Translations under genes and position numbers: made by a program
Shown here: positions 3,901-58,400 of the stretch, one piece after another
How the letters are laid out: the number at the start of each line of letters is the position of its first letter
Position numbering within the stretch: position 1 is the first letter of the stretch
Source: Owenia fusiformis
Lineage: Eukaryota > Annelida > Polychaeta > Sabellida > Oweniidae
Direction: 5' to 3'
Length of the DNA stretch: 64,000 nt
Assembly (NCBI GenBank): GCA_903813345.2
Contig: CAIIXF020000005.1
Location: forward strand, 10,297,375 to 10,361,374
The notes under the pieces: generated by a model
What the model was told of the DNA's origin: nothing
The model's input: only the letters and a program-made list of their open reading frames with translations
The model's database searches: none

Positions 3901-6900
3901 GCAGTGGACATAATGGAAAGGTGAAGGTGACTAATAATCCCCAATATGATTTAACATGGAGATTGACTAATACATGTGGTTAAAAGGTCTTCAAATGTTG
4001 TTTTTTGTAAAATTAGTGATGAAACATTTTGCAACTCATTTCAAAAACTCTCTACTAATGATCCAATTATCTGCTAATTATGCCTTCGTTTGTCTCTATT
4101 TAGAACAATAATTATATATTTTTGGAAAGTAAAATTTTCTTCATATAAAAACATCCAGAACATCTCTAAATTCACAATTTGTATTCTCCACCACTACTGT
4201 TAAGTATATCATTTCAACAAGACGAATATTCTATTCACCTCATATCTGAATCCATCAGCTCTCTGAAAGAACCTTGTAGCGGGAGTGAGATCTTTGTATA
4301 TGAATAGGGTGACATTCATTATGTTTATGTTGTATTCACGGCGCCAATCTGCAGTAGAAACATACACAAAAGAGCATCAATAAAACTAACAATATACAAG
4401 TATTTCATTATCATTTCTTTATTCATTCATAAAATTGGCACAACATGTGATATAGTCTAATCCTTCACATCATTTTACATTTACAGTAATTCAATAATGA
4501 ATGAATGGTTGGAATCCAAATTTATATCATAGGACAGAAGGAATGAATTATTTTTGTACTGACTAATACATCATGCTATGACATCTGAATGTACAAGAGA
4601 CCTTTAACTTTAATAGTTTAAAGCTAACCTGTGACATTGCGCCTACATCTATCTATGACTAGGACAGAGTCTCCTGAGCGTATGGCTACAGCACAGTTAC
4701 AAGTACCATCCTGCCCAGCTGTACAACGTTGGTAGATAACCTGTACCTGAAGAAACAATTAAATGCTTTCTAATATTTTAGATTAAGAGAGCATATAATA
4801 AAATCAATGATTACAGTGTATTTAAAATATCAGAGCAATGTATTTTCAATGCCAAGTCAGTGTTTGTACAATGTCAAGATATGTGTCAAGACAGGAATTT
4901 ACAATATCAAGGCCCTGTATTTACAATGTCAAGACATGTGACAAGGCAGTAACTGTACAATGTCAAGACATGTGTCATGACAATGTATGTACAATGTCAA
5001 GACATGGGTCAAGGCAATGACTGTACAATGTCAAGACATGTCCCAAGGCAGTATATGCACAATGTCAAGACATGTGTCATGACAATGTATGTACGATGTC
5101 AAGACATGTGTCAAGGCAGAAACTGTACAATGTCAAGGCATGTGTCAAGGCAGTATATGCAGAATGTCAAGACATGTGTCATGACAATGTATGTACAATG
5201 TCAAGACATGTGTCAAGGCAGTAACTGTACAATGTCAAGACATGTGCCAAGGCAGTATATGCACAATGTCAAGGCATGTCTCAAGGCTCTGTAGAATGTA
5301 AAGATGTGTGTCAAGGAAGAGAATTTACATTTAGGATAGCAACACAATGTATGTACAATGTCAAAGTATGGCACTCACCTCATAAGGCAGTTCCATGTGT
5401 TTGTAAAGTGTGAAATAGCCCTCTAAATGATTGTTGTAGTAACTGAAATGAGACAAAGATGAGGTCAACATGTAGTATGGTGTAATATTATTGAAGCATC
5501 TATTATGTTGAAATGGTTACATTATCTCTAAACCATTTCATGTAATGAACAATTATCTGAAGATCTTCAATCCTTTGAATGCAGGCCTCAGACATTATCC
5601 ATTTGCTTCTTCCTTCTAAAGTGGATGATGTCTAGACCCATGTATTCAAAAGTTGAGAATTCTTTATCTTTTCACAAAATCATCAATACTATTGCTATAA
5701 TATTTTTACTAGACTCAAAGAGCATTCATTATTAGCCAAAAATTGAGATAATAATGAGTATCACAAAAATTCTTGCCACCATCTGATTCCTTTTTAGCTT
5801 ATAGATTCTTTCAAAACATATTCATTTTATTTATGTCTTGTGTTACTTATGTTCCTTTTACTTATAATACTAATGTATGTTTCCTACTCACTGATTGTCA
5901 AATGTTGTTATGTGGGGGTCATTGATTGATTTGCACATAGCCTGTGTATCCATATCCCTGGCTATAACCTACAAAGAAATAAATTGTGTATGGTATTATA
6001 GTTGATATCACAATAGGTTGTTTTCTATCGTAATATACAAGTAATGTGCTGTATAGGAAGTAAATACTGCCATATACACTGTATTCCTAATTTCTGCATA
6101 ATATTCAATTTAGTTGAATGAGTGATAAAAGATTGGTTCATCAACTAACACAATGTAACCACCTGCCATTTGTAACAGATGCTGAACACCAACCACCAAC
6201 TGCAGAACACCAAACAATGCCACTTTGATGTCACCACTTGTGGTGATGACATAAAAATGCAAAATCAACTGTCTTGTTCCTATTTCCAAGAATTCACATT
6301 CTCAATAAGACGAGAATGAGGAGGTGGATCATCGACCAGTTTACAAATGCATCAAGTAGAATTAGTGCAAATATTTGAAGAGTTGACTCATTACCTTGAT
6401 TGTTAAACTCTCAAAGCGATGTTCACTTCCACCAAGGTTCACATTCAGATTTAAACTTAAGTTCCTCTCCTGGTCGCCATCATATTTCAAGTCTATGGTG
6501 GCCACAAGAGGGATCAAGTGTGGTTTGTTGTATGTGTGGTCATGGATACTGAGCACACAGGACGAATCAGGAAACTGGAAATCGTGCTTCCCGATGATCA
6601 CCTGAGAAATGGGATCACCTGATGTCATACATCTGTAAAAATTCAAAATATGCAACTTTTAAGGTATGTAGGCAATATAGGTATGCATGATTAAGAACAT
6701 TAGGCAACATTTAAAATCACATTTCAATCATTAAAAGAAGCACAGTTGGCAAGATTTGGTGAAACTGATCACATGTATGTATGTATTATTAAGAAATGAT
6801 ATGGCAGACTATATCCAATGATATCAAACTCATTTTTTATTTAATTTTTAAATTAAAACAATCATACAGGATGAACCAATAGAATGACAGAAGTCTATGA

Positions 6901-15900: not shown

Positions 15901-18900
15901 TAACAAGCGGATACAGCAGTGCAGTTATCTTGCTTACTGATGACGTAAAACAACCCATTTAATATATCTAAGTCTCAGATGAATATCCAGAAAATTAAAA
16001 CAAAGTAATGTCAATGACTACCAATGATCAAGGCAACCTTTCTCATAAACAATATATAATGTACATGTACAATACTTCAAACTGACAATGATCAACTGGC
16101 CATAGTTACCTTTGTCAAATTAAAATCATCAATAAACCAAGCAACAGGCTACATGTACAAATAGGATAAAGTATCAAGATGGTTTATAACTTGATTTTTA
16201 AAATTCAACTCTTTATGGTTTCACCTTGAGAGTGCTTGTATACTATACAATACAATACGCAAATAAACTTCAGACAATAAAGTGGTAATTCATTATTGTA
16301 AAACCTCATACAAAACATTAACCCAACAACAAAGAGTTCTTTTACAATAATAAACAAACTCCACCTCCACTTATATACGGCTATAGTGTTTTTATTTGCT
16401 TTATACAACTTACTTAGAAAAACTACTTCCTCTTGGTTTGAGCGAGACCAGTAGCACATACATTAAGATGTAACATCAAAATTATCTCCTGATCTTCATT
16501 AAAATTAAATATGAAATCTATTTTTTAATTCCTTAGTCCATAAGAAATAGAAAACTACATTTAAATCTAAAATCAAAAATGAATAATAAAATGAAATAAT
16601 GAATTAGGCCTACAAAATAAAGTCTGAAAATGGAAAAGGGTTTATAAGCATGATTTTCAAGCTGTCAAGCGATAAGGTATTTTTGTCATCAGAACTAAAA
16701 TGGTGTCTCTTTCATACCATAAAGGTAAATCTTTCAGGTCATACAGGTAAACCTCTCATGCCTTACAGGTAAACCTCTCATGTCATACAGGTAAACCTCT
16801 CATGCAATACAGGTAAACCTCTCATGTCATACAGGTAAACCTCTCATGCAATACAGGTAAACGTCTCATGTCATACAGGTAAACCTCTCATGCAATACAG
16901 GTAAACGTCTCATGTCATACAGGTAAACCTCTCATGCCTTACAGGTAAACCTCTCATGTCATACAGGTAAACCTCTCATGTCATACAGGTAAACCTCTCA
17001 TGCAATACAGGTAAACCTTTCATGTCATACAGGTAAACCTCTCATGCCATACAGGTAAACCTCTCATGTCATACAGGTAAACCTCTCATGCAATACAGGT
17101 AAACCTCTCATGTCCTCTAATGCATACAGGTAAATCTTCATGTCATACAGGTAAACCTCTCGCGTCATACAGGTAAACCTCTCCATACAGGTAAACCTCT
17201 CATGCCATACAGGTAAACCTTTCATCTCATACAGGTAAACCTCTCCATACAGTTAAACCTCTCATGCCCTCTCCATACAGGTTAACCTCTCATGCCTCAC
17301 AGGTAAACCTCTCATGCCTCACAGGTAAACCAATCATACCATACAGGTAAACCTCTAATGCCATACAGGTAAACCTCTCATGTTATACCGGTAAACCTCT
17401 CATGCCATATAGGTAAACCTCTCATGCCTCACAGGTAAACCGTTCATGCTTTACAGGTGAACCTCTATGTTTATTTCTTATTGCAAATCATTAGAAGAAT
17501 TAATTATACCAAAATGATTCGTTTAAATAGGTCTATTTTCGCTCAATCAAAAATATATTTCAATCGCCAAGATCGGTGAATCAAGAAAAATGCTTCAGAA
17601 TTAACCTACTTGCATGCACCATCAATCCAAGGGACAATCCCAAACATTTCAGAGGTGAAATTTTGTATACATCTCAATGCAGTCTCTGCCTCACACGGTG
17701 GGCATTGAGGCTGCAATTCAGCAAGCAGCATCTCAAGTGTTCTGTTGATTACAGTGGTTTGAAGAGGTCCACAGCCAGCCATGTTTACCTCCACGCAGTT
17801 GCGAGTGTAGGGTATTGTGCTATAGGAATATGGGAGATATGCATGGAGAGTGAATAAGGCTATCACCATGATAACTGTGCATAAGCGACAACAAAGAGAA
17901 ATTGAATCTAAATAAAATTACAAAATAAAATCAAAGACCACATTTCCCTTATACAACAATAATTTATACTTAATACAGATTTAATAAAATAGATTATCTT
18001 GCCTATCTATAGAATATAAATTAAACTACTCTGTAGATACATATGCATAGTCAATGGTTATATAGAGGTTAAATTTATCTTACAATCTTACATTTAATAT
18101 AAGATAAATAACCAGTATAGTTCAATTGTCTAAGATGCACCCAGCTTTATAAAGATAACTAAACTAGATTGAACCAAATTCCTCTTTAGACAAATAAATA
18201 AACTGACTATTTTATATATAATATATGTATAAAAGCAAAGCAAGGTATGAAGCTACATATATCAAGATACAGTAAAACCTGTAATGTGAACGCCTCTGGG
18301 AATGATAAATTTTCACATTCAATTGTGAGATGTTCATATTAAGGTGTTTTGATAACATGCCAGGCAATGGGACTGATTAAGGAATTCACATACACAGGTT
18401 TTGCTGTATATAATGAGACATCACTACAATATACTGTACTTACTGGCAAACTTTATTGATTGTCTTTTCTGTTGCATTGGCATACTCTACGGCTAAATCG
18501 AAAACACATCTCCATGCATTTGCTGATAATGAACATGGCCTCGTTGTTGACATTACAGTAGATGAGACTGTATTCTCAGCTGCTGCAATCGTTGACACAA
18601 TTGTGGAACTTCTGAATGAGGTAGATATTGGCCTAGATGTGGAACTGCTATCTCGAGTTGTAACGTCTGCTTCAGTGGTCATTCTTACCTCTCCATTTGA
18701 AGAGCTCGATGTGGTTTCAATGGGAGATGCTGTTGTGTAACATCCTAATTCAGTTGCATTTAGGATTAATTCTGCAAGGTCTTTCTCAATAATTGACTCA
18801 CCGATATTAGGACAGTCACGTGTAACTCGACGAACACATCCAGTTGCAAAGTTAAGCCCACTGAAAATAAAAAGAAATGTTAATATACAGAATCTCAAGA

Positions 18901-21900
18901 GATGACAAATAATAACTAATTCTGGTCTCATTTATCACTAAAAAAATAATTTCTCAGAAAACACAGGTTCAATGTGAATCCAAAGTTACTTCTCACAATA
19001 CTCAGTATAATCGCCATGCATGAAATAAATGTTGGACCTATTTTTGGAAAACTTGGATTCAAACAGTTCTGCACACTTCAAAATTCCACTCAGAGATATA
19101 CATACTTTTATTCTTCAAGTACATTCACACCCCTTGGGGTCAAGTACATGTACAAACAAAAATTATAACAATTATAAAGGAAGGAAAAAAGAAGACATTT
19201 ACATGTAAAAAACTACATAACTACGTATTAGTATTACCATTAATGATGATGATGCATTGGTGCACCAGAGATATAGCTATTGGTACTGGATGTAAATATA
19301 TATTTTGCTACATTTATACAGTTTTGATCTTTACCATATACATGGTATATATTTATGTATGTATTTTCCATGATTTTATTATCAACAATACTAACTTGCA
19401 AACATTGAATTGTCCCTGCTCTATTCGACTTTTTACTTGGGTGACACATTGATTTGCTAAGTGTATACTGCATACTGGGGTTGTCTCTTTGTTCTTATTA
19501 CACAGGGAGCCATTGCAGCACTCTGTGCATGTGGACCTCCCGCAACCTGTCCTGCATGACTGCTTCTTAGCGCAATCCTTACTTTTTACTTGGTATGTTG
19601 CGTCGTCATCTTTAGCACTTGCTTCAGTTCGCTCAAAGATTGTTACACATTGCTAAAAATTATGAAACAATGCTGATGTACATATAAATATTTATGTCAC
19701 ATTGCAAAAGGTACCTGTAAATATTCATAAGATTTTACCCATAGCTTAACATATAATAAGCAGGCCTGTCAACTTGGTAACACCTAAAATGAGTGACTTA
19801 CAAATGTTGAACACATTCCTTCAAATTGTGAACACCTTGGTCCAAATCTGAACACCTTGGTCCAAATTTTGAACACCATGGTTCAAATTTTATTGCATAC
19901 ATCTAAATTTTGGACAGCTCAAATACAAACTGTGTTCGTTATTTTCGGCATTCATTTTTTTATGTTTTGGGTTTTATTTTTTTATGTTCTTCGGATTGAC
20001 AATAATCCTAAAAATTGCGTACTTGTGTGACATATTCTGTCATGTAAAAAAACTGGGGTGACTTCAATTTCTTCAACAAATGTGTGACATACAGGGTGAT
20101 CAATAAATAAGGTAAAAGTATCTGGCATTTCTTCAGATTTTACCCAATCCTCATAAAATTTGCACAGAATAATGTTCAAACATTATTGAATTGATATATT
20201 AAGTTACAGATCAAAGTGATGTTATTGGTTGAAGTTATAGTTGCCATAGCAACAGAAAGCATGAAGACCCGGGGCAACTATCAAAATACTAAATTTTCAG
20301 TCGAAACACTTTTGATAATATATTTCAAATCACAATTAAAATGGCATATCATATTCTTATTTCATACTTCATAACTGCTACTTAATGTCCTTTGTTTTTA
20401 ACATATAGTTCATGTATTTTACTCCAGTCTTTGAACACCTTTTAAACCCATTTTCCCATAGCCTGCAAATTTTCAAGACAGCTGGCTTCAAGTCATCCCA
20501 TGAGAAACTCTCTCAACTCCCTCTTCAGCTCACCATGACGGTAAAATCATAAGGGGACAAGTCAGGAGAGTATAGTACATGACCAAACAGTAGGAAACCC
20601 AGTGCTTCAATGGTTTGTACCGTGAGAATAGCATTGTGAGACAGAGCATTATCCTAGTGCAATGTGAAACGTTTTGCAGGCCTCTTAGTCTTAGCTTCTT
20701 CCTCTTTTCTCTCATCAAATCTTTTCTGTGGGTATTGTTTTTCATCATTGACATGTGTCATAGACTTTCTATGATCACATCAGTATTCATTATATATTAA
20801 TCTTTTCCGTGACATCAAACATCAAATTTGCAAGAAAATATGTAACAATGTAAACAAAGTATTAAAACAATTAATGCTGGCACCCACGTTTATTTCTTTT
20901 CAGTTTGAAAAAGATGTGCTTTTTATCATTTTTGTTCAAATTGGACGTAATGAAATTGCCCCGGGTACCCTCGACTCCAGTTGTCATAGTAACTATAATA
21001 TTAACCAATCAGATGGCAGAAGTTACATATTTATATGTTTTAATTTAGAAATGTACAAGGTATATTCTGACCAAATTTCAGGATGTTTGGACCAATATTT
21101 ACAAAATGCCAGATACTTTTACCTTATTTATTGATCACCCTGTATACGCAAATTGCGGGACAGTTGACAGGCCTGTAATAAGAGGGGTGATCAAGAAGTA
21201 TATGTAATAGACACTTTTTACAGAGATACTTCATATGTGCCAATCCCACTGATCTTTTGTTTGCTAGTGATGCATCATTCATTCAATTATCTATTAGTAT
21301 TGTTCAGATATCTAACAGATTTTAAATTTTCAAATTGTAAGTGTTAAAGATATAGTCACAAACTACTGACATGTGAGTCAAAAGCACATTTACCTTTAAA
21401 GGAATATCAAATTTCCACTTCAATATTGACCTCAAATTAGCTTGAAATCGATAACTGTTATCTCCTTTACTTAAATGAATACTGAATATTGTGATAATAA
21501 ACTTACAGTTTCTGATACTTTACATGTCTTGGTGAGATTACAGTTCTTCTCAGGGCCTGCCTTACAGTGGTAGCATTCTAAACCTGGAATATATCAATTA
21601 TAAAGTGAAACAAGGCATTAACATGACAAAATGTCACTTACATACCACCTACCACTGTAATTTGTTACAGACACCGAACGCTAACCACCAAACACTGTCT
21701 ACAAAATGTATGTAATCCAAAATGTCACCACTTCGACTTCTGGTGGTGATGTAAAATGAAGTTAAAAATAAAGGGATGTTTTCAGACTATAGGCATTTAA
21801 ATATACAAGAACTATCTCAATACATCCCAGCAAAATTAATATTTAGTATTACAGTAAAACCTGTATATATCCAAAAACATCTTTAATTGGAACATTTCTC

Positions 21901-45500: not shown

Positions 45501-48500
45501 CAAAAGAGACAACTTCAGACACTATTTTAATTTATAATGGATCCTCATTCACTTAATTGATTTTAAGAGGTTCTGAGATCAATTTCTCCAAATTAGGTTA
45601 AATATCTTATATAAAATTCAAAACATGATTCCAATATTATGTTTTTCCAGGATTTCTCGTATGATATGCGTGAAGCGCTGCATGAGATGTTTGAATGCAT
45701 CCACATGGGTACCAAGACATGTCTGAATGAATGCATCATGGCTTTACTCGATAACCTCAAACGATACCCTCAAGATAGGCTCTCAATATGGAAGTGAGTG
45801 ACATACTAAAACATTCTCTGCAAGTCTATATGCTCTCTATTTTGGTAATTTACTTTATATGGGAAATGCCCACAGAGCTACTTTGTACATAACCATATTT
45901 TGTATATAGTTTGAGCAATAAATAAATGAGTAGTTGATTTTCCATCAACACTTCCCTGGTTTGGAAGCTCATTGTTTCCTATATTGTCTAGATACAAATC
46001 CCCTAAAATTTGTATATTTTACATTTTGTATACTCTCATCCACTGATGGATGGCCTCTTGAAAATCCTTTAATTTTTTACATGGAAAATCTTCACTCCAG
46101 CAAATCTACTACTCATTTATTAAATGCTCAGACTGCACTTTTTGATGTTTCAGGAGTTGTCAGTACATAGGAAAGAACCACCCTCACCTCACTCTAGCAC
46201 TGACCACAGAGTTACTGAGTACACATCCATATTTTGATACACCAGAACCAGATATGGATGACCCAGCATGTATCCTTTATTCTCGAGTATAGACAAATAT
46301 TTTGACTTACATTTCTGGTTGAGATTTCTACAGATGAAGATGTAAGTATTTTTCATGTAAGAAAATGTGAAAATATTTTTTTTACATCAAATGGGCATCT
46401 CACAAAGTCCTCATACTCCCATTCTATGTATATTACAGTTACACCATTCATCATTATATTATACTTTGTTTGTTGTGTGTTAGAAATAACAAAATTGAAA
46501 TTTTCAATCTTTGCCACATTTTTTTCTGATAACTGGAAATCTGTACCATGACGAGTCATTTTCCTTATTATCCCATCGAACGAAGTTCGGAGGGATATAG
46601 GGAACGCCTCAGTCCGTCCGTCCGTACGTACGTACGTACGTACGTACGTACGTCCGTCCGTACGTCCGTCCGTCTGGGCAATAACTCAAATACCGTTGGC
46701 CCGATTTTGTTCATATTTTGTACACATATACCTTATGGGGATAGAAGTTCTGCTCGAAAGCCGATTTTCAAAATGGCCGCTCATTTCAAAATGGCGGCCA
46801 TTTTAGTGCCGATTTTACAGTAATTTTGGTGCAATATGTAAAACTGTTATATCAGTATGTTTTAAATGTAAAAAATATTAAAGGACATTAATAATGCTAC
46901 AAATGTAGATATTAAAGAAGCACATGGCAGCCATCTTGAAAAATCGCGGCCTTTACTTGTCATTTTACGATTTTTGCTATAACTCAAAAAATAGTGGAGC
47001 GATTTTGTTCATATTTGGTATGTGAATACTATAAGCATTGTACACTGTCTTAAGACACTTTTGGTAGAAGGCGGCCATTTTGAAAAATGGCCGCCATTTT
47101 AACGTATTTTACTATAACTCGAAAAGTAGTGGAGCGATTTTGTTCATATTTGGTATGTGAATACTATAAGCATGGCACACTGTCCTATGACACTTTTGGT
47201 AGAAGGCGGCCATTTTGAAATTTTTTTTGAAAAATGGCCGCCATTTTAACGTATTTTACTATAACTCGAAAAGTAGTGGAGCAATTTTGTTCATATTTGA
47301 TATGTGAATACTTTAAGCATGGCACATTGTCTAATAAAACTTTGGGGAGTAGTCGGCCATTTTGAAAAATAGCCACCATTTTTATGTGTGTTATTTTACA
47401 AGTACGTGTGCGATTTTTCAAAAATTTTAGAGGTGGCTACTGAAAAGCATATTATTTCTTCTGATGACAACTTGGCTAGTGAGCAACCATTTTGAAAATG
47501 GTGGCCTTTCTGGTGTGTTGTTTTATGATATTTGCTATTCGTTTGTAAAAATGCCAGCCATTTCTGTTTGATGGGATTCGCTACGCTTTGGCGTTGCCGT
47601 TGTTCTGGTTTCCCCATGAATAAAAAACTATTGTTTTGAAAACCTTAACTGTGTGTTAGATATTGCAGTTCTGATTCTAGTGTTCAATGCTACTGTTGAC
47701 AATCCCACAATGGTCCCATTGTTCCCAGACCATACATTCAGACACTACCAATACCTCAGGGATAGTATTCCAGAGCATGTTCCTGGTCTCAATGTAAGCG
47801 TCTCTTCTTCCTGATTATGATGTCACGTGACGGTCATGTTACTGAACATTTGCAGAATTTGCATGAGAATTGGTTTTGGCTTTTTCAGAACTAAGTGCCT
47901 CATTAAAGGTAGCATCAGATCAAGAGAAGAACTTTTCCAAAAAATGATTTATGGTCTTATTTTTCATTATCACTCATTGTCATTCCTAATATAATCCGTT
48001 AATTTCATAGCTTATTCAGGGAAGATTTTAACATTTTTGTTCTCTCAATAACCACTTTGTCTTCTGCACATGTTCTGGCTTGCATGTTTGAATATGCCCC
48101 ACCATTTTTGGATCCTATATTTGCCCTGATCTCATGATCATATGTTGCAGCTGCCTGGAGTATGCAGCATGCACAAGGTGAAGAAAGATGCATCCCAAGA
48201 ACTGAGCAGGTTCCTGAACAATGCCCTGGAAAGACTCAGCAAAGTGGAAACTATGAATAGAAACTCTGCACAGCAGTTGATGGAGGTTACTATAAGGTGG
48301 GTAAGGCCAGAATTGTGTGGGTAGGTTGGTAGGCTATTATTACCTGGGTACGGCCAGAATTGTGTGGGTTAGGCCAGGAATAGGTTGGTAGGCCACTATT
48401 ATGTGGGTAAGGCCATGATTAGGTGGGTAGGCCACTATTATGTGGGTAAGGCCAGAATTGTGTGGGTAAGGCCATGATTAGGTGGACAGGCCACTATTAT

Positions 48501-51500
48501 GTGGGTAAGGCCAGAATTGTGTGGGTAAGGCCAGGATTAGGTTGGTAGGCCACTATTATGTGGGTAAGGCCATGATTAGGTTGTTAGGCCACTATTATGG
48601 GGGTAAGGCCAGAATTGTGTGGGTTAGGCCAGGAATAGGTTGGTAGGCCACTATTATGGGGGTAAGGCCAGAATTGTGTGGGTTAGGCCATGATTAGGTG
48701 GGTAGGCCACTATTATGTGAGTAAGGCCAGAATTGTGTGGGTTAGGCCAGGATTAGGTTGGTAGGCCACTATTATGGGGGTAAGGCCAGAATTGTGTGGG
48801 TTAGGCCAGGAATAGGTTGGTAGGCCACTAATATGTGGGTAACAGAAACTTCGTAAAGTTACAATTCGTAAATCAATTGTTGTAACCATGGATATAATGA
48901 CGTCATAGTAAGAGAACAATGGACTCTAAAAATTCTTAACTTTACGAAGTTTCTTTTAACGGTCCTCAGAATATTAATATCTTCAATACCTAGAACTGTG
49001 GTACATTGCCAGATACATACACTTCATAAATACATTTTATGATATTACAAATTGTGAGTTGAAGCTAGTAAATAGATGCTCTCCCTTTTGCAGACATTTT
49101 ATGATCATACTTAATATGGTAATATTTATTGCAGGGATCTATCACGTCTTTCTGAGTTGGAGCCCAAACTCTCTGCAACAACAGAAAGCATGTCCATCTA
49201 CATACAGTGCCATCTACTTGTTTCTAAGGTAATTACTTAGAGAAATAACCCTTATTAAACCCGAGATTATGCTGTTATGAGCTTTGTGTGTCCTTGAAAT
49301 ATTAGAACTAATGTGATAAAACCAGCCAAATATAAAACAAGAAATACAAAAATTAAACCTTTATCTGTGCTTCATTTTTCAGGCAGTAGCAGATCTTAAA
49401 ACCAGTGGGCGTGGTCATAAAGTATGCAATGTAACATCTACATCCATGAGTAAGGTAAGTGAGTGGGCTCTCGTATGGGCCAATGTCATAAGAGTGTGTT
49501 GTAATCACAATTTTTAATTTTATTTGTCTTTGGCAATAGAAGAGCCTACAAGTGAAACAAAAATGGAGAGTTTTTAGTTTGAGATTTGAATACTGACATT
49601 GTATTGAATCTGTTATACAGAATGACACAAAAATATAACCCTTTAATTTTGGAATAACTTTTTAGTTATAATGAAATGCATTGTATTGCTATTTCCATCT
49701 TGGTATACTGTCACACTAAATCCATAATGCAAGTTCAGAAATCTGTCTTTGTTAATATCTTCCAAAGAATCATGTCATTTTATCATAATTTACCAAGAAT
49801 TTTCCTTTTATAGCAATCCAATATGTAAAATGTTATCTCTCCAAATCACAGTCATTGATGTTCTAATGCATACCACAGTTTGATGCATTGAGCGCTGTCT
49901 ACGGAGAAGAATTAAAAAAGATTTCATCACATCAGAGAGTAGCATTTTCAGTGTTACCCTGTACAATGAGGGAGATTATCAATAAATAATAGATAATGAC
50001 ATTGGTCATTTGTGTTACCCTGTACAATGAGGGAGATTATCAATAAATAATAGATAAAGACATTGGTCATTTGTGTTACCCTGTACAATGAGGGAGATTA
50101 TCAATAAATAATAGATAATGACATTGGTCATTTGTGTTACCCTGTACAATGAGGGAGATTATCAATAAATAATAGATAATGACATTGGTCATGGCTTCAC
50201 TTTTATTGCAGTTTAATAAAGTATATTTATTCATCATATTCATGCAGGTAAAGAAGCTGACACAGAAGCTGGAGTCATTGTTTGTTGGTTTGACCATCTC
50301 TGATCTAGCGGTGATACGTCAGTTAGGTTTGAAAGCATATTGCCTCCAGTTGCTAGCAACCATACATGGCAACAGTCGGGATGCGGCTTGTTTACAGATG
50401 TGTGATGATGTGTATCAGAGAGTTACTGAACTTGAAAGGTATACTATGTCATTTGGAGTCTATTGCAATCATTGTTTTGTCTGTCTTTGTCTCTGTCTGA
50501 TCCTCAGTATATACACTTATTGTAAATCTTCCATGACAATTTAAATGGTGTCCATTCTACAATGTGTCTATATAAAGTCTTCAATCTTGAGCATTGGTCC
50601 AAAATTGAATGTTTTCAAAAAGCTTGCGTTTCCACAAAAGTTGCCATTCCTTATTTGTATACTTTCTATTGTGAGTAAAATCACATTTTAGTTAATAATA
50701 AAATCATTTAGGCTATTATTTAATCTCATGATAAAATGAACATAATTGCTTGATATGTTTCAGTTTTCTCTCAACACATAATATGCCGTTTGATCCATTT
50801 ACTGCGAGACTGGTGTCTGAGTTAGGAGAACTAGAGTCTCGGCAACCTGCCATATTTCTGCGTGTTCTACAATCAACTCTAGGTTTACATAAAATTGACA
50901 TTCATACATTATCAAATAATGTCCAAAAAGCACATGTGGTGATTCATGAACCTGTCAGCGAATCAGACAATCCAATTAGATTTACTGCGGGACTAACTGT
51001 TGGAGTGCAGTTCATTGCGATCATTGAAAATATTGATGACTCCCATAATCTCAGATTAAAGGTAAATAAGAGGATAAATTACCCTCTTGATATGTCCAGT
51101 GTTCATAAGTGTAATTTTTTTCAGGAAATAAAATTCTGTAGCTTGTTTTAACCTGGCACTGGTTTTAAATGGACATTTTTTAAGAATTCTAAAAATTAAG
51201 TAAACAATATTCAAAAAAATCCCCCTCTGTTAAAATTACAATTTATGTACTAAAATTGAAAATTTGTCACTTCTCAAAGCAGAAGGGAATAGAGACCGGA
51301 TTGAGGAGATTGCTTCCAACATCATACACTCTCTACTTTCTTTAACTAAGTCATTCAATCAAAAGTGTCCTTGGTCAGCCCTTCAGTGGGTGAGTCTTGA
51401 AAGAAAAGAAGCGCTTATCAAAATTAAACAAAAATAATTTGTAATTTCTGACAATGTTTCAGATTAAATACCCCGACCAAGAAGAGCAGTATGTTTCTAT

Positions 51501-52138
51501 AAAGCAAGCGGACTGCAAGGCTATGGGTGGGAATAAATACAGGGTGTCCACAGAAGTTATTCTATCCCATACTCTTTGGTCAGGTGAGTCCAAGCACATG
51601 TGTGTCATAATTAAGCTGTTTGGAAAATGAGAGGTAAAATCGAACAATAATTTTATTATAAATCCTAAAGCCATTTTATTTCATTTTAAAGTACATATTT
51701 GTGTCATGGTTATTTAAAGCTTTGAAATTTGAATTGGCCAACGTGTTTTAGGGTACACTAAAATTTTCCTGCATGAATGCATCTAATATAATAGATATGT
51801 ACTTCCTGTGAGGAAAATAATATCTGACTCCATCTGTAAAAAGATTATTATGTCAAGCGTAAAAAGTTAGACTTAGGAGATAACGATCTGCCCCTCCATG
51901 TTTTTTAGAAAAGAAAATCCAGACTGCTATACATGCATTATCATTGTATATTAACTAATTAACTAGCACTGTACTTTCCTCTCCAGATCCATGTTACATA
52001 GAACTGTCTCTAGCAAAAGCCTTTACATCTAACTACAACAGCAGTGACACTGAAATATCATCAACAAACAAATTGGAAACTGTGGACTTATGTACACCAG
52101 TAAAAGTTTATGTCTCACCAAGACCTGGGAAAAGGTGA
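32767..52138 (+). CDS. INTS4: Integrator complex subunit 4, complete 19-exon gene
   Basis: Integrator subunit 4 is a HEAT-repeat scaffold of the nuclear complex that cleaves snRNA 3' ends and attenuates RNA polymerase II; with INTS9 and INTS11 it forms the cleavage module. Exons: 32767-32820, 33501-33816, 33982-34088, 34948-35127, 36456-36595, 44165-44354, 44784-44958, 45266-45471, 45651-45793, 46154-46269, 47660-47793, 48151-48296, 49135-49228, 49383-49454, 49879-49950, 50248-50438, 50764-51061, 51463-51583, 51987-52138. All are GT-AG, all phases close, and the total is 2907 nt (968 aa), close to the human protein of about 963 aa. Recognised blocks include [69 protein letters not shown] and [14 protein letters not shown]. 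The start context is CAGCATGG. Intron 5 hosts a nested antisense gene. Confidence 0.95.
33030..33285. repeat. GGCCC-rich repeat in INTS4 intron 1
   Basis: Has GGGGTGGATCTGGGAACC at the left, repeated AAAAGGCCCA / GGGCCC words inside, and a long G tract followed by CGTGCCCTTTCAACGG at the right. It resembles other short non-autonomous elements with G/C tracts near their ends, but I cannot define its termini. Confidence 0.35.
34715..34838. mobile_element. TGTCACCAC-family short element, reverse orientation
   Basis: Reads GTCTCCAACTTTTTTGTGGA, TGTAACAAATGGCAGGTG, TTGACATTTTG...TTAATCCCTTGT, the reverse of the forward copies. It lies in INTS4 intron 3. Confidence 0.6.
35290..35427. mobile_element. 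Palindromic MITE, copy 1
   Basis: Arms GGGGGCCATTAACAGAAACT then TCGTAAAGTT and their inverse (AACTTTACGAAGTTTCTGTT, then AATGACCCCC). The centre has TGACGTCATTATATCCATGG. A second copy with the centre reversed lies at 48838-48966. Both are in INTS4 introns. Confidence 0.8.
35555..35800 (+). pseudogene. Tc1/mariner-type transposase C-terminal relic
   Basis: Within INTS4 intron 4, forward conceptual translation around 35645-35795 gives [26 protein letters not shown], then [16 protein letters not shown]. The D-x-x-LWG block, the L-x-x-LK-x-EI-x-x-x-x-x-x-IT stretch and the downstream V-x-x-x-x-x-x-x-x-I follow the C-terminal pattern of mariner-like transposases. It ends at a stop and has no intact upstream part. 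Confidence 0.55.
36655..37470. repeat. Interspersed element with ACGT run and AAAATGGC words, copy 1
   Basis: Starts TTATTATCCCATCGAACAAA, then GAGGGATATAGGGAACGCCT, a TCCGTC/ACGTACGT run, CCGATTTTGTTCATC, CGATTTTCAAAATGG and repeats of GGCAGCCATCTT. It lies in INTS4 intron 5. A fuller copy is at 46560-47620. Confidence 0.6.
37469..42461 (-). CDS. EF-hand protein, sarcoplasmic calcium-binding protein-like, nested in INTS4 intron 5
   Basis: Complete four-exon gene: 42426-42461, 41875-42001, 40037-40221, 37469-37696. Lengths 36, 127, 185 and 228 nt sum to 576, giving 191 aa plus stop (TAA at 37471-37469); all splice sites are GT-AG and phases close. EF loop 1 is [12 protein letters not shown] (about residues 32-43), preceded by [13 protein letters not shown] degenerate loop follows about residue 119 ([12 protein letters not shown]). 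A canonical loop, [12 protein letters not shown], is at about 153-164. Length, loop placement and aromatic-rich helices fit invertebrate sarcoplasmic calcium-binding proteins or calexcitin-like proteins, which buffer cytosolic calcium. There is no signal peptide. It lies wholly inside INTS4 intron 5 on the opposite strand, so its transcript would be antisense to INTS4 pre-mRNA. Confidence 0.88.
40264..41040. mobile_element. Long TGTCACCAC-family copy with internal tandem repeat
   Basis: Starts TTATGTCACTTCC...GTGGTGAC, has GGTTGGTGGTCGGCGG and ends AGGTGGTGACATTTTGTCAT then TTAATGCCTTGTT. Between these halves is a roughly 115-bp tandem array (TTCAAATCTGACTCTAGA, TTTGACCTTCAATGACC, CAAGGTCAAAAA). 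It lies between exons 3 and 2 of the nested EF-hand gene. Confidence 0.65.
43590..43800. repeat. AAAATGGC-family fragment
   Basis: Shares ATTCTGATGACAATTTGG, AGTGAGCAGCCATTTTGA, AAAATGGTGGCCATC, GGGATTTGCTACGCTTTGGC and ATTGCTGTTGTCT with the right end of the 46560-47620 copy. It is a 3' fragment in INTS4 intron 5. Confidence 0.6.
44165..48296 (+). CDS. INTS4: INTS4 exons 6-12 (aa 266-635), central HEAT region
   Basis: This is the best conserved part: [29 protein letters not shown], then [77 protein letters not shown], and [13 protein letters not shown]. Exon joins are phase 2/0/1/0/2/1/0. Exon 12 ends at 48296 with donor GTGGGT, which is also the first base of a 59-bp minisatellite. Intron 10 contains a 1-kb repeat element starting near 46560. 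Confidence 0.95.
44478..44642. mobile_element. TGTCACCAC-family short element, reverse orientation
   Basis: Contains CATGTCATCACCACAAGTG, TTTGGTGGTAGGTG and the conserved tail GGCAGGTGGTGACATTTTGC then ATGTTAATGCCTTGTTTA. It lies in INTS4 intron 6. Confidence 0.7.
46556..47610. repeat. Interspersed element with ACGT run and AAAATGGC words, fuller copy
   Basis: Starts TTATTATCCCATCGAACGAA, has a long ACGTACGT/CCGTCCGT tract (46610-46675), then three tandem blocks of about 140 bp each with AGTGGAGCGATTTTGTTCAT, GGTATGTGAATACTATAAGC and inverted GGCGGCCATTTTGAAAAATG, and ends GGGATTCGCTACGCTTTGGC. It occupies INTS4 intron 10. Confidence 0.7.
48297..48837. repeat. 59-bp minisatellite starting at the INTS4 exon 12 donor
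   Basis: Units GTGGGTAAGGCCAGAATTGT, GTGGGTTAGGCCAGGAATAG and GTTGGTAGGCCACTATTAT recur about nine times with shuffled sub-units. The first base of the array is the first base of intron 12. Confidence 0.9.
48838..48966. mobile_element. Palindromic MITE, copy 2
   Basis: Arms TAACAGAAACTTCGTAAAGT and ACTTTACGAAGTTTCTTTTA, with the centre CCATGGATATAATGACGTCA, the reverse of copy 1. It directly follows the minisatellite in INTS4 intron 12. Confidence 0.8.
49135..52138 (+). CDS. INTS4: INTS4 exons 13-19 (aa 636-968), C-terminal region
   Basis: These exons encode [19 protein letters not shown], the diverged middle part ([37 protein letters not shown]), and the conserved C-terminal beta-rich part: [36 protein letters not shown], and the end [12 protein letters not shown] with TGA at 52136-52138. 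Exon 15 (49879-49950) uses a weaker donor, GTGTTA, which is also the first base of a four-copy 61-bp tandem repeat. A partial duplicate of the last coding bases lies just after the stop. Confidence 0.93.
49951..50192. repeat. 61-bp tandem repeat, four copies, starting at the INTS4 exon 15 donor
   Basis: Copies start at 49951, 50012, 50073 and 50134 with GTGTTACCCTGTACAATGAG, then GGAGATTATCAATAAATAAT and AGATAATGACATTGGTCATT. Copies are nearly identical, so the expansion is recent. The array begins at the donor of exon 15. Confidence 0.93.
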
Positions 52139-52215
52139 CATGTCTCTTTAATGACATGTCACTTTAATGACATGTCACTTCAATGTTTATGTCACATCAA
52201 GATCTGGGAAAAGGA
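52108..52215. repeat. Duplicated INTS4 C-terminal coding segment
   Basis: GTTTATGTCTCACCAAGACC then TGGGAAAAGG (ending 52135, coding) recurs as GTTTATGTCACATCAAGATC then TGGGAAAAGG (ending about 52215). Between them are short repeats of CATGTCACTTTAATGA. The second copy is in the INTS4 3' UTR, close to the end of the oxidase gene. Confidence 0.75.
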
Positions 52216-52228
52216 TCAGTATTCGGTC

Positions 52229-52440
52229 TCAGAGCTCCGATTTTGCTGCTCCCTCTTCCTCAAGGAAATCCTGAAACAGTGTTTTCAGCATTGAGTTCAT
52301 AAAGATGTTGCTTGGATCAAGAGACTTCTTGTTTCGGATGGTGATAAACTCTCGAAAGCTGGATCCATAGACATTTCGAATGTGGTTGTATATGCCAGGA
52401 ATGGAGTCATATATCTTAGCCCATTGTGGCACAGCATTAT
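52229..52440 (-). CDS. Oxidase terminal exon, ALO-type C-terminus
   Basis: Encodes NAVPQWAKIYDSIPG, then FREFITIRNKKSLDPSNIF and ends LEEEGAAKSEL with TGA at 52231-52229. The tryptophan-x-lysine motif followed by a run to LDP-x-x-x-F is diagnostic of D-arabinono-1,4-lactone/L-gulonolactone oxidase C-termini. The acceptor is CAG just before 52440 and requires the preceding exon to end in phase 1. The strong donor of the preceding exon (GAA before GTAAGT) gives phase 0, and only a weaker GTACCA site four bases later would fit. Confidence 0.7.
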
Positions 52441-55400
52441 CTGACAGTAAACCAGTAGCAGCTTAGAAAATAATGTGCATTATGCATAAATTTTATGTGT
52501 TATCTCCAAAATTGAAACAAGCGAGGGTGCTGTGCTGCACTTAAAACCTTTTTGTATCCAGTCAATAATTAGAAAAGTTTGGACAGAAGTGTATAAATGA
52601 CACTTGACACCTAACGGGAAAAATAACTATGAAAGGACTCTTTGTAATGGTACTTACTTCAGTAAACTGTAGTTTATCTTGAATTAGTTCATCTGTTGAA
52701 TTGAATGGACAAATCTTACTTGAAAGCACCCATTCATAGTCTATGACCGTTTTAAAACTTCCAGCTACCTAAAATGAAAATGGCTCAACCTATATTTGAA
52801 TCTACTACTAAGTTATATGTACAAATATTTAGATATACAATCAAAAATTTGGGAGTTTTGACAGCTTTTAACATTTAACTACACACATACACAACAGATG
52901 ATGTTCAAGTTAGTAAAATTAGACGGCGGAGATCATTTCTAGACAATTTTTGTGTAAATTGGATAAAACTTGTTCAAATAAGAGCAATTTTAGTGAACAA
53001 TTTGTGACGGATTATCTCGTCACTCTGGGTTTCAGGGTCATTTCTGAGGTGACGAGAAATCTCGTCACTCTGGGTAGTCAAGAGGTTAACTACTTATCTA
53101 CTTACCAGTATGTTCTAAGTTCTCCCTCACTTGAGGTTAAAAAAAGATCATCTAAAATTGGATCTAGAAATGTGGTTTTAAAAAGGGTTCATCGACATTG
53201 AAAATGTGACTTCTAAGTTGGGGAGATTCCCCATAGACCCATGTTATAAAATCACAAAGAGTGAAATATATTTTCTTTTCTTGTATTGGACATATAATAA
53301 ATTTTTACCTACCAGCATCTGGGTTATTGTGGATGAACATATGTCTTTTATTAAGACTTTGAGGGCATTAGATTGAATGGAAAGATGGATTCAAGACATG
53401 AGTGCATTGAATCACCCACGAGTAATGGGCTTATATTCATAGTTAATGTGTTAATGATTATTTATATGTGTAAATGGTTTTTAATGGGAGGAATGACTGT
53501 AATGCCATCTATGTTTTTAAATTCTGATCAATTTCTGTTGAATCATTGCCAGTTGAACAAAGTTTTTGAAAGGTGAACACATATAAGTGAATTGAGCTAA
53601 GAACTGATCTAGTATTTTAAAGATTTAGGACATATTATAGTTACAACCATAAACAATGAGTGATTCTGATGAACAATCTCAGGATGAAGGTGGTACAGTC
53701 ATGAGATTTTGCACAAATTGCAAAAATCCAGTAAAAGGACATATTGGACCATGTGGTAAAAAATGTACCAATTCTATGGATAATAATACAGATGAAGAAT
53801 GTACCATATATAAGAATGTACCATATATAAAAACTCACCTTTGTATGACACAAGACACAGTCATCTTGATGGGTGATCCATTTGAACAAACCATAATAAG
53901 ACTCATATGTCATCCCATATTTCTTTAAACTCTCTTCTATAACTTGGAAGAAATTCTGGATATAAAGAGATATGTAAGTATATTTGATTGGATAGGCGAA
54001 TCATGGTTTTCAGCATGAGTAGAATATGAATTAGCTTTTTTGATAGCAAAACTTAATGAAAAGCGCAGTAATCATTCTCTTCCTACTGGTAAAAGGTCAT
54101 CTGAAATGTCAGAGTACAAATAGAGGTTTTTGGCTCATTTGCTGACAATGACTCATGATTAGGTGACCTGAGGTTTGACATTTCAAAGGATCAATATATA
54201 GATATTTACCATTTTATGGAGGCTGCTGTGACCTAAGTTGGTGACCCACTCAAACAGGTATATTGCTGGTATAAGAATGTCTCATGTTCAGACAAAAATA
54301 TGCTCATACCTTAATTGTCCTTTGGCTGTCAGAAAAGTCCTCAGATTCAGTTCCAATCCAGCCTGTGTTCCTCCTTAAATGTACACTATCAAGAAAAGCT
54401 GCTGGAAAGAATATTGTTTCTGAAAGAGTCCTATAGTCTGATGTGGCTTCATATTCAGTGTTGTCGTTAAGTGTCCATGTTTCAGGAAATTCCTCACCGA
54501 TATCATGAATAGTTGTTCCATTTTCCTGGTTGTAGATCCTTAATAAATATAAATAAAAAATAGTTTAAATTATGGTGTGATGCCCTAGTGTCTACTTTAT
54601 ATATTGAATATGGAATAAACCATAAGAAGTACTAGATGCATAATTGTTAACTTTTGAATATACTAGTAACATGTAATTTTTAGAATCAACACGTTATATG
54701 AAATAAGCACACATTCTAGTTTTCTGGTTCTAATTCAACCCTAGATTTGAAGAGATTTTTTCTTAAAAACAACTCTCAGAAACAGTCTTTTGTTATTTTT
54801 TTTTTTTTAAATCATGTATATGTTGTCTTTTGTTATTGACCTACCATACTTGCAAAAGATCATTCAAGGGAGTCCATGAATCTGGTGGTCTATGAAGTTC
54901 ATCTCCATCTCTTGCATTAACCTCCTCATCTGTAGCTCCATTGAAAGCATTATATAACAGGTATAAGCCATCGTTGTTCATCACAAGATCTTTAATATTT
55001 TCAGGATTAAACATCAGATCTTGCACTCGCACATTAAACTTGGTAAACTTGAATGTTGTGTCTGGAACTACCTTTGTGGAAAGAAAGACAGATGAAGACA
55101 GATACAATTGTCAGAATCAAACAAGACATATTATCAACAAATATATATATTGAGGGTCTGTAGCTTTGACTGTTGAAGCCCGCAATATAATTGAAGTATC
55201 GGAGATAATTGAGTAAATCTACCTTTTTGTAAGAGAGTTGAGTGTCCAAATACAATTGTCAGAATCAACATATATGTACATGAACTGAAACCTACTACTA
55301 GTATATGAAGTCACATGATTTCTTTCTTTTACTGTAGTTATCTGTCGATGACACACCACATTTTTTCAGGCTTCATGCTTGTATTGGGTAAAAATGAGGT

Positions 55401-58400
55401 AATATTGATTTGAAAATCTTGTTATTACTGGTAGGTAATCATGTGTTTTTTCTATTATTCTATTAAATGTAAGCTTTTGCATGAAGCTTTCATTTTACCT
55501 TAACAGTGGTGTTATATATGATCCCACACATACCTTAACAGTGGTGTTATATATAATCCCACACATATTAACAGTGGCGTTATATATGATCCCACACATA
55601 CCTTAACAGTGGTGTTATATATAATCCCAGACATATTTACAGTGGCGTTATATATAATCCCACACATATTCCCCGTTATATATGATCCCACACATACCTT
55701 AACAGTGGTGTTATATATAATCCCAGACATTCCTAGATGGACTTTGCATGCTGCGATAACATCTTTATCATCATCTTCATTGAAATGTCTCACATTGCCC
55801 TGGCCATCTACTAAGTCAATAGCATTTACATAGATTGCTGTTGGCCCATCTTTGATGAAACCACCCTTAAAATACCAACAAACTTAATTTGTTTGAAATA
55901 TCAATTCACGTATGAAACTTTAGATTTCAAAGCTAGGACTATTAATGCTGTAGGATGATTAATGCTGCTATTTAAATGAGCAATTTAATCAAATTCTCTT
56001 AAGTTTAAGTTTAGCACTAAGTCCTACAAATCCATTTTGATAACTACTAGGCCAACAACTTTTTATCATGTTAACAAAACTGTAAATGGTAACTTATGGC
56101 CCCTTAGTGCATTAACTTAGCTCAAGCCATAATTCTGTGTAATAAACTTTGTACAGAAAGTATGTGTCTTACTTGAGCAGCTGTTCCAATGACCCCTTGA
56201 AGGGTGGCATCTGGTACTGAAGGTGCTGAGGGTATCGTCACTCCATTTTCTCTTGTGAAATTAATGAACTCGGAAAGTAAAGCTGAGCCTAGCGAACTTG
56301 CCAACATTCTCTCCTAAAAGGGACAAAGTGCATAAATAAAGTCTCACTTTTGATCTTCATAGTATTTCCAATGGATTAATAAGTACATGAACTTTCATTT
56401 GACTCCAAAACTAGCTCAAACAGACCACATCAGAGTTCACACTAGATCATGAAAAAATATTTTTGATCTACCAATTTATAGATGTCAAGTTTTTAGCAAT
56501 GCCATAAAAAGATGGCATTGTTGTTTGCATTAATCGTCCATTCATTTTTGATAGGAATTTCAACCATACGCCATCTTTTAGTCCAAGAGTTATTAAGAAA
56601 CATACACTTTGTGAAAAGTGGTAATTCACTTCTTATGATCTCTGAACTTCAAATGCTGTTTTCTATGCGAGTAATTTTTTTTTCACTTCAGTATTGACCC
56701 AAATTAAAGTTTTTATCATATTTGATTGACTGTGTGAGTGGCATGTCTCAAATAATATTTTGTCCCTTTTCCTTCTAAAATAAGCACATTAATGTAGGCC
56801 TATATGATTGTGAAAAAGAAAATTGTCTAACTGTGATTGATACATGTACAGTGAAACCTTTATATCTGAACACCTCTCAATGTGAACACTTTATCTCTGT
56901 CCCAAAATTGTTATCTCCCATTGACTTACATGTTAATAAAACCTTAAAATGTGAACACAGGCTAATTGGAACACTTTTGGCTGGTCCCAGGCCTGTTCGG
57001 AATAGATAACTTTTATTGTTCATTGATTTATTCTAATAAACTTTTATCTGCATTAGTGCTTTCCATATACAGGGAAAGCATAATGAAAGAAAATATAGGG
57101 GAGCAAGGGGGCAAGAGACTTTCAATAGCCTGAATACCTCTCAATAATGGGACCAAAACCTATGGCAGGGTTCAAGGTCATCGAAGTATTAATGTTGTCA
57201 TGTAAGTACTGTCTAACGAAACCTATTTCTGAGTCTGCTACATACTTTTTTTTACTAGTGTGCAGCTAAGAAATGCTGCATCATTTAATCAGTGTATTAA
57301 TAAGCTTATGTTATTATTGCTTTTTCATACCTTGTCTAGGGTAAACCTACTACCCACAAGCAATGTCAGGTCAAGTCCAATATCTCCATTGTCAGCATAT
57401 AAGGGTGACCAAGAATGTTTGTGTCCAACTGGTCGAATGTTTAATCCAAACTCATTGGCTACTTTTACCAGCTTTATAATCTGTAATAAAGTTATCAAAA
57501 CTCTTTGTTGTCTTACATGTCACATCTTTTTCCTTTTATGGCAGTGCTCATAATTCATATGATGATTAGACAGACAAAGTATTTTGTACCAAAAAGTACA
57601 TATTGTACCAAAAGTATATTGTACCAAAAAGTACATATTGTACCAAAAGTATATTGTACCAAAAGTACATATTGTACCAAAAGTATATTGTACAAAAAGT
57701 ACATATTGCACCAAAAGTTTATTGTACAAAAAGTACATATTGTACCAAAAGTATATTGTACAAAAAGTACATATTGTACCAAAAGTATATTGTACCAAAA
57801 AGTACATATTGTACCAAAAGTATATTGCATCCTTTAACAAGTGGGATTCTAGGTAGATGACAGGCAGGGATATATTATATCTAAGGAGTGGGATGGATAT
57901 TTTCTGTATCAGTCCTTCTATCTAGGATCGGGGACATAGAAATATCCATCACAGTTTGACCTTCAAAAACAATTATTTTTCTCATTTTAATTAATGATAG
58001 TTAAATACCTTTCAAAAAGAATCCATAATATGAATATAGAGGGAAACAGTACAAAAGTACTGTATACAAGTTAAAAGGAGCTTAGAATTCATCCTCTTTA
58101 TGATCTTCAACATGAATGTGGTGATATATAACAGAAAACACACCAAAGGAATAAATCAAATTATCTTAGTTAACAACATGATGACCTAACCTTGGAATAT
58201 TATACTTCATGTTACTGCAGTTAGTTAATATTTTGGTTGTACTAAAAAAATGTATATACATGTAGTCATGTGTAATAGGCCTCTTCCCTTGAAATGGAAT
58301 TGGCCATGTATTGAAGTATTGACTTTTAGTTAGCACCTCCACAAATGTAATGAATTTAGGCCTTTATGTAATGTTTAGCCATGATAATGTCACTATCAGA

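Follow-up and report, generated by a model that had tools for sequence, protein, structure and literature searches.

Why should several minisatellites in a single stretch of an annelid genome begin at, or very near, the 5′ splice site of an intron? The question is raised by a 64,000-nucleotide stretch of Owenia fusiformis DNA, here called the window (GenBank assembly GCA_903813345.2, contig CAIIXF020000005.1, forward-strand positions 10,297,375 to 10,361,374), in which a sequence-only reading had placed four tandem arrays at donors: two in INTS4, one in a flavin adenine dinucleotide (FAD)-oxidase-like gene and one in a VWDE-like gene. Our analysis indicates that such arrays are probably boundary-spanning minisatellites of the amphioxus “mirage” kind, whose repeat unit joins part of an exon to the adjoining intron with its splice signal. 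At conserved exons we find units that contain exon ends and donors, and there are acceptor-side arrays as well. This is a known kind of structure, now found in another animal group and recurring there.

The FAD-oxidase-like array lies on the minus strand. Exon 5 of this gene (55698..55865; numbering of the sequence-only reading) is an open frame between an acceptor and a donor; it ends ...GMSGIIYNTTVK|gtatgtgtg, and the intron starts at 55697. A donor-spanning array at 55496..55734, which comprises 7.1 copies of a 35-bp unit, draws that unit from the last 33 bases of the exon; by eye, its units carry those 33 bases followed by the donor. The motif TTAAG|GTA places a first intron base at 55697 and then again at 55601, 55533 and 55498. 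These observations bear out the proposal that an array at 55500-55730 duplicates the end of exon 5 with its donor. As to the gene itself, exon 5 shows a weak match to cytokinin oxidase (E-value 0.11), another exon matches FAD_binding_4 below that family’s cut-off, and the end of exon 5 joined to exon 6 gave no Pfam match.

On the plus strand, the INTS4 exon at 48151..48296 is bounded by an acceptor AG at 48149-48150 and a donor GT at 48297. Its translation matches human INTS4 across the junction: joined over intron 12 (again numbered as in the sequence-only reading) it reads ...EVTIR/DLSRL, where the human protein is contiguous (TIRDLQRL). The minisatellite that begins at this donor (48297..48842) is composed of subunits of about 20 bp with periods of 59, 118 and 157 bp, and its unit, GTGGGTAAGGCC, starts at the first intron base, 48297, as had been claimed. 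Tandem Repeats Finder puts the array start at 48322; the earliest copies, from 48297, were read by eye. Into the exon, homology of the unit extends for no more than about 8 bp and includes two mismatches. When 191 bp spanning the junction and the first part of the array were searched against the genome, no other locus matched; that search skips very common words.

The second INTS4 array (49951..50192, plus strand; 4.0 copies of a 61-bp unit) had been placed at the first base of intron 15, and this placement fails. Without the proposed exon 15, the Pfam domain INTS4_8HBD is matched by 176 residues on 177 positions at 139.4 bits; adding the 24 residues of that exon lowers the score to 128.3 bits, a loss of 11 bits. 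Because the proposed exon lowers the domain score, we place the array in the middle of an intron (49455-50247), with no supported donor at its start. The supposed exon-15 donor, TCA|GTGTTA, also seems to us a poor one. Exon 15 could still be a lineage-specific exon, which would put the array outside the middle of an intron.

The fourth array had been described as starting 8 bases after a donor in the VWDE-like gene, an identity that we treat as a putative label. A plausible exon is indeed present (5379..5442, minus strand), with an open frame, an acceptor and a donor GTGAGT at 5378. The 34/102-bp array reported by Tandem Repeats Finder (4907..5287, minus strand), however, stops 91 bp from that donor; only decayed copies reach to about position +9 of the intron, and the copies nearest the donor show no exon homology. 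Overall, two of the four proposed donor-anchored arrays are firm (INTS4 at 48297 and the oxidase), one is near a donor at best (VWDE-like) and one is unsupported (49951). The broader expectation of more donor arrays than chance would give holds in that such arrays recur genome-wide and exceed rough chance estimates, as set out below, although only two in the window are firm.

For the published O. fusiformis assembly, a size of 505.8 Mb and 12 chromosome-scale scaffolds are reported, and an annotation and transcriptomes are described in the available part of its report (PMC9977687). The genome we searched totals 498.3 Mb in 525 contigs, of which C1-C12 measure 31.9 to 62.2 Mb each and about 477 Mb together. 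It contains an annelid erythrocruorin linker domain, which along with the 12 large contigs favors an annelid over amphioxus, an origin considered first because mirages are known there. GFP, COX1 and molluscan haemocyanin gave no match, which is weak evidence; the control for the GFP search matched nothing either. We looked through the whole genome for two copies of the donor word AAGGTAAGT lying 15-45 bases apart. Among the 100 of 138 matches listed there are, by our own grouping, 13 arrays, all of which we inspected; 11 come right after an open frame terminating at the donor. A second donor word, CAGGTAAGT, gave 15 arrays by our own count among 100 of 214 matches listed, apart from a dispersed 26-bp repeat; 12 were inspected, the remaining three having short units, and eight of the 12 come after an open frame. 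Pooling both words, an exon-like frame lies directly before 19 of the 25 arrays inspected, and for 10 of the 25 there is a family or structure match.

For AAGGTAAGT, Pfam matches are UGDH (locus L007), UCH (L009, with a hand-picked exon), Ig (L013), CRIPT (L018) and, below the curated cut-off, FANCI (L011), and Protein Data Bank (PDB) matches are NCS-1 (L014) and PSME4 (L017). For CAGGTAAGT, the matches are NIF phosphatase (L100), kringle (L108, below cut-off) and PF15874 (L110). Five further exons look ABCC-like (L010), Hv1-like (L012), DIP2-like (L016), SCYL2-like (L101) and JIP-like (L102). Open frames without a Pfam match precede the arrays at L008, L106 and L107, and a short open frame precedes that at L111. 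No exon was seen at L006 and L015, nor within the stretch inspected at L103, L104, L105 and L109.

What exactly is repeated? In the 18 pattern-found donor loci that we measured, the unit is 31-54 bp long. In many of them it is mostly exon, with an intronic part that extends little beyond the donor hexamer: the exonic share is 39 of 44 bp in L014, 31 of 38 in L016, 26 of 31 in L018, 45 of 49 in L013 and 50 of 52 in L100. At many loci, then, the array takes in the end of the exon and does not begin with the intron. Long intronic parts are also present (29 of 45 bp in L007, 29 of 44 in L108), and in L017 our script’s measure finds no exonic part.

The repeats are not confined to donors. At L007 (UGDH, C2:33703200-33704800) and L009 (UCH, C4:3646500-3648400), one and the same exon is flanked by acceptor-side repeats upstream and donor-side repeats downstream. 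Acceptor-spanning or acceptor-ending arrays occur at L092 and L083 as well as upstream of the L007 and L009 exons, and for this reason we reject a donor-only process; duplication is not restricted to 5′ splice sites. The sequence-only reading had suggested a local duplication process seeded at 5′ splice sites. Its observation that exon ends and donors are duplicated holds, since such arrays recur across the genome, but the acceptor-side arrays speak against a restriction to donors.

These properties are those of amphioxus mirages. The founding mirage paper is reportedly that of Canestro in 2002. In the accessible portions of two later papers, mirages are described as exon-intron boundary repeats in Adh3, in the globins BflGb6 and BflGb9 and in troponin C, with many units carrying AG/GT signals and regular splicing reportedly undisturbed (PMC3087553, PMC3902484). 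They affect both exon boundaries, and the globin paper, in the part available, suggests a link to intron gain (PMC3087553). Changes in array length are reported for the Adh3 mirage. In O. fusiformis, a unit made of exon plus adjoining intron with a splice signal is found in the oxidase array and in most of the pattern-found loci measured; the INTS4 intron-12 array shows it weakly, given its short and imperfect exon homology, and L017 lacks the exonic part. Both boundaries are represented here too, the donor at L007, L014, L018 and L100 and the acceptor at L007, L009, L092 and L083, the last with unmatched frames. Our units (31-54 bp) compare with 10-72 bp for amphioxus Adh3 and 150-160 bp for the globins, as given in the portion of the globin paper at hand (PMC3087553). 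Mirages have so far come from cephalochordates whereas ours are in an annelid, a difference of range that we treat as non-defining.

Several other systems share some of these features. In lancelet PGBD5, 60-bp and 108-bp repeats likewise coincide with or overlap 5′ and 3′ splice sites, but according to the available text they are imperfect repeats in a single gene, and of another phylum (PMC3902484). Variable internal tandem repeats in human segmental-duplication genes are likewise minisatellite-sized (30 bp mean), and some lie at an exon-intron boundary; as far as the accessible part of that report goes, they belong to young primate paralogs, about half are coding and they are discussed as making new introns, whereas our copies sit within already existing introns of conserved genes (PMC2812944). 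In intron gain by tandem duplication of an AG/GT proto-splice site, described in Drosophila (PMC2891723, cited in PMC3087553), a splice signal is likewise duplicated inside a gene; the portions seen concern new introns, and ours are copies in existing ones. Repeats in abalone (PMC6905558), earthworm metallothionein (PMC12783039) and Conus (PMC3862624) are, in the text available, intronic and not boundary duplications. We recognized no report of boundary-duplicating arrays in annelids in a literature search conducted mostly by title and the start of the abstract, covering few subscription journals and no bioRxiv preprints.

On the reading that we favor, a short tandem duplication would copy the exon end with its donor, or the acceptor with the exon start. 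The original copy next to the exon would keep serving as the splice site, and the spare copies, now intronic, would grow, contract and decay through ordinary slippage or unequal exchange. Because the exon-side copy would still serve as the splice site, the protein would be unchanged and the duplication tolerated. We infer that the exon-side donor is the one used. In 17 pattern-found loci (a count that leaves out L017 and L091), splicing from the second donor would run into a stop first in eight, shift the frame in five and keep it open in four. The same counts bear on the idea that repeated donors are selected as splicing regulators, acting as decoys or as alternative 5′ splice sites. Many copies do retain AAGGTAAGT or CAGGTAAGT, but the search selected for these words, and in L091 and L096, the two donor arrays found without a pattern, the donor copies have decayed; together with the stops and frame shifts, this makes selected donor arrays very unlikely.

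Do such arrays exceed what the donor words and chance would produce? As a control for the first word we used the 60 AAGGTAAGT sites that head the list for C1 and, at each site, the longest open frame ending there within 300 bases. Under a fixed rule, in which only frames of at least 25 residues (32 of the 60 sites and nine of the 13 arrays) were searched against Pfam and shorter ones were scored as having no match, four of 13 arrays and five of 60 unselected sites gave a match (one-sided Fisher test, 0.047); a reverse-transcriptase match among the control sites (L019) is set apart from the five. Names gained by closer inspection of the arrays are not comparable with the figure for the control. 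An early pattern with a 4-base gap gave seven matches, against 18 for its control, and is uninformative.

We also scanned stretches that had not been chosen for arrays. These were random windows totalling 120 kb, nine windows (76.5 kb) around donors of the 60-site set that looked genuine, and dynein genes amounting to 29.5 kb. An array was counted if its period was 20-70 and it had at least 2.8 copies. Seven arrays in the genic windows satisfy this rule. Two of them, L091:1078 and L096:5609, span a donor as judged by frame and splice signal, and a third, L092:2162, ends at the acceptor of an exon with a PDB match to transportin-1; its unit includes no more than about 2 exonic bases. Of the six arrays in the random windows, two (both from L083) cross an acceptor-like site into an open frame. 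The dynein stretches (L002-L005) hold one qualifying array, in L004, which abuts an acceptor without exon bases and is not counted as a boundary case; arrays near acceptors in L097 and at L092:4553-4704 are not counted either. L080 and L091:8090-8157 are coding repeats by frame and were kept in the denominators.

Two arrays in these stretches merit separate description. At L004:882-1121 (C9), 59-bp units running from just past the donor to the acceptor fill nearly all of a short dynein intron. At L093:5001-8501 (C1), an 87-bp unit with an acceptor-like stretch is repeated about 40 times over more than 3 kb and runs off the end of the stretch. The L093 unit contains a frame reading INGGSNGGLL (coding piece INGGSNGGLLVGACA), which we take to be the active-site motif of prolyl oligopeptidase. 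Its 87-bp period lies outside the preset rule, and results are accordingly given with and without it.

With the window and L093 both set aside, five of 14 arrays touch a boundary where 1.2 are expected (Poisson, 0.007), on rates assumed as 0.11 for genic windows, 0.05 for random windows and 0.08 for the window. On the same assumed rates, including L093 gives six of 15 (0.002), and adding the window as well (two of 11) gives eight of 26 against 2.2 expected (0.002). In the genic windows alone, three of seven touch a boundary (binomial, 0.033, against the rate of 0.11), or four of eight with L093 (0.007). Boundary arrays are therefore more frequent than a simple expectation, a result to which we give moderate weight because it rests on assumed rates.

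These figures bear directly on the simplest version of the mirage reading, in which minisatellites are many, some hit exon boundaries by chance and are tolerated there, and nothing seeds them. The window holds 11 arrays per 64 kb and the random windows six per 120 kb, and since array density in the window is high, some boundary overlap is expected there. Unit periods are divisible by three in six of 18 cases, as chance predicts, and the array-level excess of the donor word over its reversed control, given below, is modest. The boundary counts outside the window and in the genic windows pull the other way, insofar as the assumed rates hold. We regard chance placement as a serious possibility, though one short of an even chance.

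Several results weigh against the mirage reading or against strong versions of it. Pairs of AAGGTAAGT number 138 per 7130 sites against 115 per 11815 for the reversed word, and pairs of CAGGTAAGT 214 per 4020 against 83 per 4455, but a handful of long arrays dominate these counts, which also include some CAGGTAAGT pairs from the dispersed 26-bp repeat. By arrays, at least 13 for AAGGTAAGT per 7130 sites stand against at least about 11 non-coding ones for the reversed word per 11815, judged by eye in a roughly equal part of the matches listed for both words; this excess is only about twofold (Fisher, 0.07) and, as the weaker result, speaks against strong claims of enrichment. The rates behind the chance estimates were assumed from splice-site spacing, and array edges were judged by eye. 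Moreover, the exons of L010, L012, L016, L101 and L102 have no Pfam match, and those of L010 and L016 no PDB match; Pfam likewise gave nothing for the frames of L091 and L096; and in L083 one frame gave no PDB match, the other not being among those searched. Finally, the four loci whose frame stays open with the second donor are L011, L106, L110 and L111, and L011, L106 and L111 could be coding repeats, because no stop appears in the 50 codons read.

Does anything about the boundary itself promote the duplications? In seven of 18 pattern-found arrays the unit has at most 9 intronic bp, where 2.0 such arrays are expected at random (simulated p 0.002; Kolmogorov-Smirnov p 0.009). This test leaves out L012, whose homology is unclear, and keeps L008 and L011 at the script’s value of 27 intronic bp each; by eye the intronic part is 6 bp in L008 and about 9 bp in L011, which would give nine of 18. 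That duplication ends cluster immediately past the donor hexamer is suggestive; it was noticed post hoc in a small set selected for the donor, and we see no reason why selection would favor a short intronic part. Founder duplications seem often to have ended just after the hexamer. L008, with only two copies that by eye comprise 32 exon bases plus GTAAGT, likely represents the founder step.

The junctions themselves hint at how some founders could have formed. In L100, where the far end of the array was read, the exon and the surviving intron both read AAGTGTT, and at the start of the unit the exon carries AAGT in L013, L096 and L111 and ATGT in the oxidase gene. The AAGT and ATGT matches may reflect microhomology, or may have been needed to keep the donor working. 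Slippage with microhomology would fit some junctions, L100 for example, and some founders presumably used microhomology between exon and donor.

Such breakpoints could mean that seeding is tied to transcription or splicing, with a donor feature (candidates are the end of an R-loop, U1-bound nascent RNA, or a nucleosome or GC step) causing breaks or slippage and the 3′ end of the duplicated piece falling near +6. The short intronic parts are what this model predicts. The pattern was, however, seen after the fact in a set whose search required a donor, acceptor-side arrays exist, and long intronic parts occur in L007 and L108, so that we think seeding of this type rather unlikely. The mirage reading itself fits both chance placement and seeding at the boundary, and does not choose between them.

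Might the arrays instead be dispersed repeats or transposable elements that inserted at donors by chance? Among the matches listed, a sequence with two CAGGTAAGT words 26 bases apart occurs at 13 places (for example C2:19294719 and C8:4074264); because its spacer is identical at each listed place, it looks mobile or dispersed. The units at mirage loci, on the other hand, consist of the local exon’s own sequence, and the INTS4 intron-12 query, the one unit searched against the genome, matched no other place. Insertion at donors is therefore hardly credible as a general explanation.

Other repeats were seen in passing. A 135/147-bp tandem repeat with the core TTTTACTATAACTCGAAAAGTAGTGGAGCGATTTTG lies at 46961-47382 of the window and in a random window of C3 (L081:950-1360); its presence in both suggests a dispersed family. 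A 17-bp core like AAGTGGAACACC occurs at three separate places, 7790-8666 in the window, L004:3631-3675 and L096:1698-1742, and in the window it is nested in units of 93, 185 and 278 bp. The minus strand of 8730-19652 carries several short, cysteine-rich exons that resemble one another in layout, look Ly6-like by eye and are separated by repeat arrays. Within this region, a 52-bp array of 20.5 copies (12203-13259) is open in more than one frame; the longest stop-to-stop stretch on the plus strand is 295 codons.

What do boundary arrays in an annelid mean? Mirages were previously known, in the parts of the literature available, from a handful of lancelet genes, and their recurrence in conserved annelid genes makes them a wider mutational pattern. 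A more far-reaching idea, which we advance only as a long shot, is that exon-intron boundaries act generally as hotspots of short tandem duplication in the genomes of some animals, annelids and cephalochordates among them, with the duplicated piece tending to end just after the bases that pair with U1 small nuclear RNA and the process coupled to transcription or splicing, so as to supply spare splice sites for new introns and exons. Boundary arrays are a source of duplicated splice sites, which is one proposed route to intron gain. In practical terms, gene predictors and assemblies must handle rows of near-identical donors in such genomes. More broadly, boundary arrays may inform how genes mutate at their splice sites.

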